Below, one piece after another: positions 22,203-24,735 of a stretch of DNA of 35,884 nucleotides. The notes under the pieces are model-generated. The model saw only the letters and a program-made list of their open reading frames with translations. It was not told the origin of the DNA and searched no databases. The translations under genes were made by a program, and so were the position numbers. Position 1 is the stretch's first letter; each line of letters begins with the position of its first letter. The stretch covers positions 1 through 35,884 of the forward strand of contig WSYB01000048.1 in NCBI GenBank assembly GCA_009773645.1, written 5' to 3'. This DNA is from Geobacteraceae bacterium (GTDB lineage Bacteria; Desulfobacterota; Desulfuromonadia; Geobacterales; Geobacteraceae).

Positions 22203-22205
22203 AGG

Positions 22206-22275
22206 GTGAAATGTGAAATGTGAAATGTGAACCCGAGGCCTTTCGATTCACCTTTCACGCTTCACGTTTCACGGG
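22206..22275. repeat. GTGAAAT tandem heptamers with facing complement, between ddl and ftsQ
   Basis: GTGAAAT occurs three times in tandem plus a partial fourth (22206-22231). Facing it are TTCAC/TTTCAC words from 22246 to 22272 that could pair with it. This 79-bp gap is the only non-coding stretch between ddl and ftsQ. Such GTGAAA/TTTCAC blocks look like a slippage-grown palindromic repeat rather than a terminator. Confidence 0.6.
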
Positions 22276-22281
22276 TTTTTC

Positions 22282-23106
22282 ATGCGTGATCTGCGCCCTA
22301 CATTTAAAAAACAGAAGCCCCCTGCCAGAAATCGGGCAAAGAGACAGCGCAAACCGATCAATTACCGCAGCTTTTTTAAAAAGGCTGTGCGGCTGGTCAG
22401 CTGGGTTGTCGTCGTTGCGCTGGTCGGCGTCATCGGCTTCGAGGCTTACGGAGTGCTGGCCCGGACCACGTTCTTAAAGCTGGAGCGGATTGAGGTCACC
22501 ACCCTGAAGCGGCTCACCCGGGAAGAAGTTCTCACTCTGGCCGGGGTAAATCCGGGGGACGATATGCTGGCCTTGAGGCTTTCGCGCATTGGGGAACATC
22601 TGGCGAAAAACCCGTGGGTTGAAAAGGTCAAGGTCAGGCGCTATTTCCCCCATACCCTTGTCATTGAAATAGCCGAACGGGAGCCGGTTGCGGTAGCCAA
22701 TATGGGGTATCTCTATTACCTGGACAAAAACGGCGAAATATTTAAACCGCTGACGGTGGGGGACCGGCTCGATTATCCGGTTCTGACCGGGATAACCGAA
22801 GAGGAGATGGGGAAGGACCCGGCAGGCTCCAGAGAAGCCCTGAAGAGCGCGCTGGACCTGATTGCCTTGCTGAGCGGGGGAACGGTCTTTTCGCTTTCGG
22901 ACATATCCGAGATCCATTACGACAAGGGGTACGGCTTCACCCTTTTCTCCGCCCAGGGAGGGGTGCCGGTCAGGCTTGGAAACAGCGGCTTCGGCGATAA
23001 ACTGATGCGGTTTGCCAGAATTTACAGGGATCTGCAGGCGCAGATGCCAAACCTGCAATATATCGACCTTGACTACAGCGATAAGATCATAGTTAAGAAA
23101 TCATAA
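22282..23106 (+). CDS. ftsQ: FtsQ/DivIB, divisome scaffold protein
   Basis: FtsQ links FtsL/FtsB to the divisome from the periplasm. The 274-residue protein has a strongly basic cytoplasmic N-terminus (about 1-35), one transmembrane helix (36-58), a POTRA domain (about 67-135, beginning LERIEVTTLKRLTREEVL) and the FtsQ beta domain, ending with a conserved-looking NLQYIDLDYSDKIIVKK. ATG 22282 has only a weak ribosome site. The last base of the stop is the first base of another ATG (23106). The 3' end is partly duplicated downstream; see the entry at 23124. Confidence 0.92.
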   Translation: MRDLRPTFKKQKPPARNRAKRQRKPINYRSFFKKAVRLVSWVVVVALVGVIGFEAYGVLARTTFLKLERIEVTTLKRLTREEVLTLAGVNPGDDMLALRLSRIGEHLAKNPWVEKVKVRRYFPHTLVIEIAEREPVAVANMGYLYYLDKNGEIFKPLTVGDRLDYPVLTGITEEEMGKDPAGSREALKSALDLIALLSGGTVFSLSDISEIHYDKGYGFTLFSAQGGVPVRLGNSGFGDKLMRFARIYRDLQAQMPNLQYIDLDYSDKIIVKKS

Positions 23107-23123
23107 TGGCAAAGGGAGGGAGT

Positions 23124-23336
23124 ATGGCTGGTAAAAGAGGGAATCCGACTGCAGGACTCAATAACAGCACCACCAAGATCTGCGCCATTCTTGGCAGTTT
23201 TACCTCGGGAGGGATCGATATAGTTTACAGGGATATGCAGATGCCGATATTGAACCTGGACAATATCGACATCGACTGCTGCGACAGGATAAAAGTGAAG
23301 AAGGCGTCTGGCAAAAGGGGGAAGTATGTCCGGTAA
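23124..23336 (+). pseudogene. Fusion ORF from a degenerate ftsQ-ftsA tandem duplication
   Basis: This 70-codon frame is a chimera. Residues 1-30 (MAGKRGNPTAGL...TTKICAILG...GGIDIV) copy the first 35 residues of FtsA (MSGKRDNLIVGL...TTKICAIVG...DGIDIV). The rest (YRDMQMPILNLDNIDIDC...IKVKK) copies the C-terminus of FtsQ (YRDLQAQMPNLQYIDLDY...IIVKK). The order ftsQ end, ftsA start', ftsQ end', ftsA start is what a tandem duplication of the ftsQ-ftsA junction leaves behind. The FtsA phosphate-binding sequence LDIGTTK has become LNNSTTK, so no nucleotide binding is expected. The frame stays open and keeps its ribosome site (AAAGGGAGGG). ATG 23106 is an alternative start. It overlaps the true ftsA start by 11 bp. 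Confidence 0.85.
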
Positions 23337-24561
23337 AAGGGATAATCTGATCGTAGGGCTCGACATCGGCACCACCAAGATTTGCGCCATTGTGGGCAAT
23401 GCCACCGAAGACGGGATCGATATCGTCGGCATCGGTACCAGTCCGTCGAGGGGGCTGCGCAAGGGGGTGGTGATCAACATCGACAGCACCGTAGCCTCCA
23501 TCAGGAAGGCGGTGGAGGAAGCCGAGCTGATGGCCGGTTGCGAGATCAAGTCGGTATATGCGGGGATCGCCGGCGGCCACATCAGGGGGCTTAACTCTCA
23601 GGGGATCATAGCCATCAAGAACCGCGAGGTTTCGCCGGAAGATGTGAAAAGGGTGATCGAAGCGGCAAAGGCGATTGCTATTCCCATGGACCGCGAGGTG
23701 ATCCATATCCTTCCCCAGGAATTCATCATTGACGACCAGGACGGTATCCGCGAACCGCTGGGGATGAGCGGGGTGAGGCTGGAGGCCAAGGTCCATATCG
23801 TGACCGGCGCGGTGGCCAGCGCCCAGAACATCATCAAGTCATGCAACCGGGCCGGGCTGGACGTGGCCGACATCGTTCTGGAACAGCTCGCTTCCTCCGA
23901 GGCGGTCCTTTCCTCCGACGAGAAGGAACTGGGGGTGGCTCTGGTGGATATCGGCGGCGGCACCACCGACATCGCCATCTTTGTGGACGGTGCCATTAAA
24001 CACACGTCGGTCCTCTCCCTGGGAGGGAACCATCTGACCAACGATATCGCCGTGGGCTTGAGGACGCCGATGGCCGAGGCGGAGAAGATCAAACAGAAAT
24101 ACGGCTGCTGCATGGCCTCCATCGTCGGAAAGGAAGAAACCATCGAAGTGCCCAGCGTCGGGGGGCGGAAGCCGCGTGTCCTTTCCCGCCAGCTTCTGGC
24201 TGAAATACTCGAGCCGCGGGTGGATGAAATTTTCTCGCTGGTGAACCGGGAGATAGTAAAGTCCGGTTTCGAGGACCTGATCGCTTCCGGAATAGTGATC
24301 ACCGGCGGCAGCACCATCCTGGAAGGGATGCCGGAACTGGCGGAACAGGTTTTCAACCTTCCCGTGCGCCGCGGTCTGCCGCAGAACATCGGCGGGCTGG
24401 TGGATGTGGTAAACTCGCCGGTTTATGCCACCGGTGTGGGGCTGGTAGTCTACGGCAGCAAGAATGTGGGGATCAGCGAGTTCCCCACGACGCAGAGCGA
24501 TGAAAACCTGTTCAGGAGGGTGAGCAGGAGGATGAAGGAATGGTTCGGCGAATTCTTCTGA
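23326..24561 (+). CDS. ftsA: FtsA, actin-like membrane anchor of the Z-ring
   Basis: FtsA polymerises on the membrane and tethers FtsZ. The 411-residue protein has the phosphate-1 motif LDIGTTK at 12-18, the SHS2/1C domain (about 85-165), phosphate-2 VDIGGGTTDIAIF near 207-219, the adenosine motif GIVITGGSTILEGM near 325-338, and the C-terminal amphipathic membrane helix (RRVSRRMKEWFGEFF, last 15 residues). ATG 23326 is preceded by AAAAGGGGGAAGT, which is also the end of the fused remnant ORF, so the two may be translationally coupled. Confidence 0.96.
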   Translation: MSGKRDNLIVGLDIGTTKICAIVGNATEDGIDIVGIGTSPSRGLRKGVVINIDSTVASIRKAVEEAELMAGCEIKSVYAGIAGGHIRGLNSQGIIAIKNREVSPEDVKRVIEAAKAIAIPMDREVIHILPQEFIIDDQDGIREPLGMSGVRLEAKVHIVTGAVASAQNIIKSCNRAGLDVADIVLEQLASSEAVLSSDEKELGVALVDIGGGTTDIAIFVDGAIKHTSVLSLGGNHLTNDIAVGLRTPMAEAEKIKQKYGCCMASIVGKEETIEVPSVGGRKPRVLSRQLLAEILEPRVDEIFSLVNREIVKSGFEDLIASGIVITGGSTILEGMPELAEQVFNLPVRRGLPQNIGGLVDVVNSPVYATGVGLVVYGSKNVGISEFPTTQSDENLFRRVSRRMKEWFGEFF

Positions 24562-24562
24562 T

Positions 24563-24682
24563 GGAAACGCCACTTTTCCGCAATCTCTGCGTTGATCTGC
24601 GGGCTGGCGTGTGCGGCGTAGCGCTGCTACGCCTCCGTGCCATCCCTTGATCGCCTTGACCTTGCGAAAAATTGACGTTTCC
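24563..24682. repeat. 120-bp imperfect palindrome between ftsA and ftsZ
   Basis: The outer ends GGAAACG (24563-24569) and CGTTTCC (24676-24682) are inverted. Further matching runs inward (CCACTTTTCCGCAA facing TTGCGAAAAATTGA). The centre is a hairpin, GGCGTAGC-GCT-GCTACGCC (24615-24633). The unit starts just behind the ftsA stop codon. It looks like a non-autonomous palindromic element (MITE-like). As RNA it would form a long stem between ftsA and ftsZ. A weak promoter-like pair, TTGACG (24672-24677) and TAAATT (24694-24699), overlaps its right end and could serve ftsZ. Confidence 0.75.
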
Positions 24683-24735
24683 TGTGGCAAATTTAAATTC
24701 TAATGGGGTGCATTTATTAAAGAAAGGGGGCTGTT

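Follow-up and report, generated by a model that had tools for sequence, protein, structure and literature searches.

A probable chimeric small-protein gene at a tandem-duplication join between ftsQ and ftsA in a Geobacteraceae bacterium and its relatives

Organization of the ftsQ-ftsA junction

The analysed stretch of DNA (the window; 35,884 nucleotides of contig WSYB01000048.1 from a Geobacteraceae bacterium) carries ftsQ at 22282..23106 (+ strand; 274 aa; Pfam POTRA_1, 2.2e-16, and FtsQ_DivIB_C, 1.4e-15) and ftsA at 23326..24561 (+ strand; 411 aa; Pfam FtsA, 4.8e-52, and SHS2_FTSA, 5.6e-34), separated by 219 nt. At their junction lies a head-to-tail duplication of a unit of about 203 bp, which starts near codon 247 of ftsQ and ends near codon 34 of ftsA; it was detected as two overlapping direct repeat pairs (D1/D2). 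One pair is 118 nt long (23107-23224 / 23309-23426; 75% identical, spacing 202) and the other 96 nt (23021-23116 / 23224-23319; 71% identical, spacing 203). Unit 1 (23021..23223, +) holds the ftsQ 3' end, a spacer and an ftsA-like 5' end; unit 2 (23224..23426, +) holds an ftsQ-like 3' end, a spacer and the true ftsA 5' end. The real ftsQ terminates in the first unit, the real ftsA starts in the second, and the leftover half-units join at about 23224-23226.

Both repeat pairs bear out the order given in a preliminary description of this DNA (ftsQ end, ftsA-like start, ftsQ-like end, true ftsA start) and supply the DNA similarity to ftsQ and ftsA that it expected. That description also had the copies drifting by several substitutions and small indels. 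The substitutions are there, but the 1-nt difference in spacing between two ungapped repeat pairs points to one net 1-nt indel, the remaining drift being substitution.

The chimeric open reading frame

An ORF of 70 codons (23124..23336, +) crosses the unit join in frame, with both parent genes intact on either side, as in a chimeric gene. Codons 1-34 correspond to FtsA residues 1-34, codons 35 to about 60 to approximately the last 26 residues of FtsQ, and the frame then reads through the former ftsQ stop into the ftsA start. The ribosome-site-like sequence AAAGGGAGGG (23111..23120, +) lies ahead of it, and the three other copies inspected for such a site likewise have a G-rich stretch before their start. 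An alternative upstream ATG at 23106 would extend the ORF to 76 codons. Its coordinates, the ribosome-like site and the change of LDIGTTK to LNNSTTK were all as first reported. When the window's FtsA was used as a query, an extra copy was recovered at 23124-23225 (62% identity, E 1.5e-4), and another in G003, a single-contig genome of a different genus.

The end of the fusion ORF overlaps the ftsA start by 11 nt (23326..23336, +) in the window and in four of the other five carriers described below, and by 20 nt in G003. The ribosome-site-like sequence of ftsA, AAAAGGGGGA (23313..23322, +), falls within the fusion ORF.

Four fusion copies were scanned against domain libraries. Pfam gave no match up to E 1, and NCBIfam gave nothing above cut-off, the best FtsA score being 13.6 bits against a cut-off of 175.85. 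The POTRA and FtsQ_DivIB_C domains present in the window's FtsQ were not found in these four copies. The DIGTT motif, which we take to be the phosphate-1 loop of the parent FtsA, is exact in none of the six copies: it reads NNSTT in the window, DFGST in G003, DIGTA in G057 and G056, GLGGK in Geobacter sp. OR-1 and ALGNK in G054. ATP binding by the predicted product is unlikely, because this loop is changed in every copy and the remaining FtsA core is absent. Residues invariant across the six copies include CA, GxF, GxxIVY, a D in the former FtsQ strand, and DR. AlphaFold2 models of the fusion protein reached a mean pLDDT of 40.8 and 44.0 (two models, three-sequence alignments), too low to use.

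Distribution among relatives

A profile of the ORF recovered stop-free fusion copies in 6 genomes out of 277 of the class, in three genera, so that the duplicate sought in related genomes is not confined to the window's assembly. The same six were the yield among 141 genomes of the order (four-row profile A1), where the next-best matches, at E 1e-12 or weaker and over positions 1-34, fell on the starts of true ftsA genes. Sampling the phylum more thinly (395 genomes) gave two hits, both of them known carriers. The carriers are the window's own genome (G000) and G003, from two genera of family f1, and G054-G057, which make up all four genomes of genus g17 in a different family, f3. All six copies sit between ftsQ and ftsA and have no internal stop; five match profile positions 1-70, and the G054 copy, an ORF of 69 codons, matches positions 8-70. 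An assembly artefact is an unlikely source of the duplication, because the identical structure occurs in assemblies of other species, including the single-contig genome G003.

In a separate set of 80 loci kept of 305 found, the fusion was present in two, Geobacter sp. OR-1 (L037) and a groundwater MAG (L047); these are G055 and G057, respectively, with identical FtsQ and FtsA. The other 78 loci have ftsQ-ftsA gaps of at most 155 nt. No such profile match was obtained in 46 of the 48 family f1 genomes or in 9 of the 13 of f3, some of these assemblies being incomplete; G005 and G047, within the 46, gave no match of any kind, and their assemblies may lack the locus. In the nine f3 genomes without the fusion ORF, the spacers measure 19-81 nt.

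Decaying relics of the fusion in relatives were considered and rejected. In alignments of 12 longer ftsQ-ftsA spacers to the six copies, no spacer was distinguishable from shuffled sequence; the best candidate, the L036 spacer, was equalled by 30 of 200 shuffles, whereas the fusion copies reached scores of 43-132, with 25-28 as the highest values among the shuffles. Seven of the nine f3 non-carrier spacers went through the relic test, and no relics were found. The junction sequence had no match in phages. One other ftsA of the sample, at G033:C2:170193-171423, lies in two overlapping frames, an apparent frameshift of the assembly.

Origin and history of the copies

The join is the same in all six copies: the FtsA part stops at residue 34 (33 in G054, which has one codon fewer) and is followed by an FtsQ-derived Y. 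The former ftsQ stop has been replaced in each of them and the frame continues into ftsA. The distance from the fusion start to ftsA is 202 nt in all four copies measured. F26 is common to the six copies, whereas FtsA of the same species has A or V at that position. In a tree of the copies with 61 parental segments, which carried few-columns and long-branch warnings, the copies fell on one side of a branch (SH-aLRT 87).

In a tree of concatenated FtsQ and FtsA (61 rows), the carriers grouped with two further rows, Geobacter argillaceus and a relative (SH-aLRT 84), and constraining the six carriers as one clade raised the likelihood by 12.9 (p-AU 0.87). In a 25-row rpoB tree, G000 and G003 stood next to family f3, apart from the other members of f1, the family assigned to them (SH-aLRT 94); the root was weak (69), the tree included one foreign long-branched row, and 5 of 29 genomes gave no rpoB. 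On the rpoB placement, the minimal history of the fusion gene by our own count is one gain and one loss; on the family codes, with G000 and G003 in f1, more losses or a transfer would be needed.

The window's assembly gave three rpoB matches, on contigs C24, C59 and C56 (L149, L172 and L174). One is Geobacter-like and the two others are only about 60% and about 50% identical to the G003 protein, so that the assembly probably holds foreign contigs.

Selection on the fusion

Codon models were fitted to the six copies over 67 codon columns, with the ftsA-overlapping columns excluded; six sequences give limited power. The dN/dS calculation proposed in the preliminary description gave an omega of 0.229, well under 1 (LRT against 1, 63.9; p 1.3e-15), or 0.254 when a transition rate was added. 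Each half was significant alone (FtsA half, omega 0.205, LRT 39.4; FtsQ half, omega 0.232, LRT 24.1). The parents of the same species yielded 0.062 for ftsQ and 0.013 for ftsA, the fusion being less constrained than either. For the two closest pairs, NG86 gave dN 0.11 and dS 0.54 (OR-1/G054) and dN 0.013 and dS 0.12 (G057/G056), and 24 of the 40 differences in these pairs lie at third positions (p 5e-4). Distant pairs are saturated at synonymous sites; of the 15 pairs, NG86 could not yield a dS for 4 and YN00 for 5.

Simulations used approximate branch lengths chosen from pairwise dS values. When evolution was unconstrained, none of 20,000 replicates kept all six frames open. When only an open frame was required, none of 100 reached the observed LRT (maximum 14.1; mean omega 0.92, lowest 0.51), the one value of 14.1 making the tail of this null heavier than chi-square. 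Retention by selection, as proposed earlier, is supported by the open frame in six species together with the low omega, and the label "degenerate" that went with it is misleading, given purifying selection in both halves beyond the requirement for an open frame.

Discussion

The computations establish the structure, the sharing of one and the same join by six species from three genera, and the action of purifying selection on each half. We consider, with a probability of roughly three in four, that the locus carries a chimeric small-protein gene that arose at a duplication join, whose residues are under purifying selection and which is positioned for translational coupling to ftsA. The fusion thus probably encodes a functional small protein rather than being a scar. 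A 203-bp tandem duplication over the ftsQ-ftsA junction would have made the in-frame chimeric gene at its join, and loss of the ftsQ stop in the copy would have let the frame run into the ftsA start. From the layout, the fusion would be translated between FtsQ and FtsA and end just inside the ftsA start, where termination and restart would feed ribosomes into ftsA and the peptide would be made in step with FtsA. At a further remove, the predicted product, a small protein, may reside in the cytoplasm and influence the division machinery or FtsA output, possibly through its FtsA-derived beta-hairpin and FtsQ-derived edge strand. For an ftsA-coupled small protein acting on the divisome or on FtsA supply, we have good confidence in the putative gene and low confidence in any specific partner. 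The interaction with FtsA or FtsQ partners suggested in the preliminary description is a hypothesis. That the product is a lineage-specific division protein, fused from FtsA and FtsQ pieces inside the operon of these two genes and tuning the divisome or the supply of FtsA through mimicry of its parents, is put forward only tentatively.

Selection for translational coupling into ftsA, suggested in the preliminary description, agrees with the overlap seen in all six copies, but coupling alone is insufficient because selection on the residues exceeds that of the open-frame-only simulations. If the ORF were a pure coupling leader, only the passage of ribosomes to ftsA would count and the residues of the peptide would be irrelevant. 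The terminal overlap and the internal position of the ftsA ribosome-like site fit such a leader, which we nonetheless regard as improbable: the observed LRT lies far beyond the simulated maximum, and in most relatives a short gap, with a G-rich stretch ahead of ftsA, separates the two genes and the ORF is lacking, so it is not generally required. RNA folding near the ftsA start, examined in four carriers and three non-carriers, was also unremarkable (z -0.88 to 1.22), which counts against a leader and gives no sign of an RNA structure hiding the ftsA site in these seven sequences. Less probable still is a neutral remnant, open by chance; the fusion is indeed more diverged than ftsA and ftsQ and is missing from most relatives, but the omega and the six open frames leave this the least likely of the explanations weighed here.

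Instead of selection on a single old gene, gene conversion from ftsA and ftsQ or a series of independent duplications might have preserved the similarity to the parents. In ungapped, codon-guided identities against the parents of nine species, the window copy has its highest values with its own ftsA and ftsQ (0.73 and 0.72) and reaches at most 0.66 and 0.64 with any other copy. It is, however, nearly as close to foreign parents (0.72 to ftsA of G034, 0.69 to ftsQ of G003), its own parents being best in the two halves by 0.01 and 0.03 only, and in neither half does any of the five other copies match its own parent best. The identical join and the fit of the carriers as one clade also count against this explanation, to which we give very little weight. 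A similarly slight chance attaches to the fusion acting as an FtsQ decoy, in which its FtsQ-derived strand would bind FtsB in competition with FtsQ. The copied segment does align with the end of the FtsQ beta domain. In E. coli, FtsB pairs with the last FtsQ strand, centred on Y248, Y248F is functional, and the contact is periplasmic (PMC6134095). The g17 copies have F at the Y248 position and the D245-equivalent residue is kept in all six; the Y248-equivalent is, however, C in the window and L in G003, leaving the aromatic in g17 only, and neither an export signal nor a membrane segment is evident in the fusion protein by eye. This alternative is accordingly weakly supported.

The preferred reading, a chimeric small-protein gene under selection, belongs to a known kind of event. 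Where a tandem duplication covers parts of two genes, its join fuses them, and a new gene can result; in Drosophila, chimeric genes have reportedly formed at such joins. The present fusion was likewise born where a tandem duplication spans two genes, but its product has 70 residues, it lies in a bacterial division operon, it is found across genera, and its parents are intact on both sides. Codons 1-34 come from the first strands of FtsA (PF14450, TIGR01174), but the fusion is without the SHS2 domain or nucleotide-binding core, and its altered DIGTT loop retains the D in three copies. The C-terminal part comes from the end of FtsQ/DivIB (PF03799, PF08478), but the POTRA domain is absent and a membrane segment is not evident. 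Translationally coupled leader ORFs contain the ribosome site of the next gene and overlap its start with their own end. By its layout in the sequence the fusion shares both features, but it is also under selection at interior residues, beyond its frame and end.

The titles and abstract openings of the papers retrieved, a scope that leaves subscription journals mostly outside, yielded no described ORF between ftsQ and ftsA in these bacteria and no bacterial division operon with a conserved duplication-join fusion gene. Such operons rank with the most conserved ones of bacteria. A gene born in one by a single small duplication, with its parents adjacent and in several species, would be a clean case of gene birth. 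Should the protein act on FtsA or FtsQ, a natural regulator would have been built from the very parts that it regulates. The carriers are several related environmental bacteria, and the fusion gene is unnamed in Pfam and NCBIfam.

Repeats near the locus

Immediately upstream of ftsQ, an imperfect inverted repeat was noted by eye on GTGAAATGTGAA / TTCACGTTTCAC (window 22203-22272). Directly after ftsA lies a dispersed repeat (window 24561-24690) with at least 41 matches in the window's genome, itself included (E 1e-3 or better; a lower bound, since scoring covered 40 of 67 candidates). The 155-nt ftsQ-ftsA gap of L007/L045 is filled by an element that, by eye, resembles this repeat.
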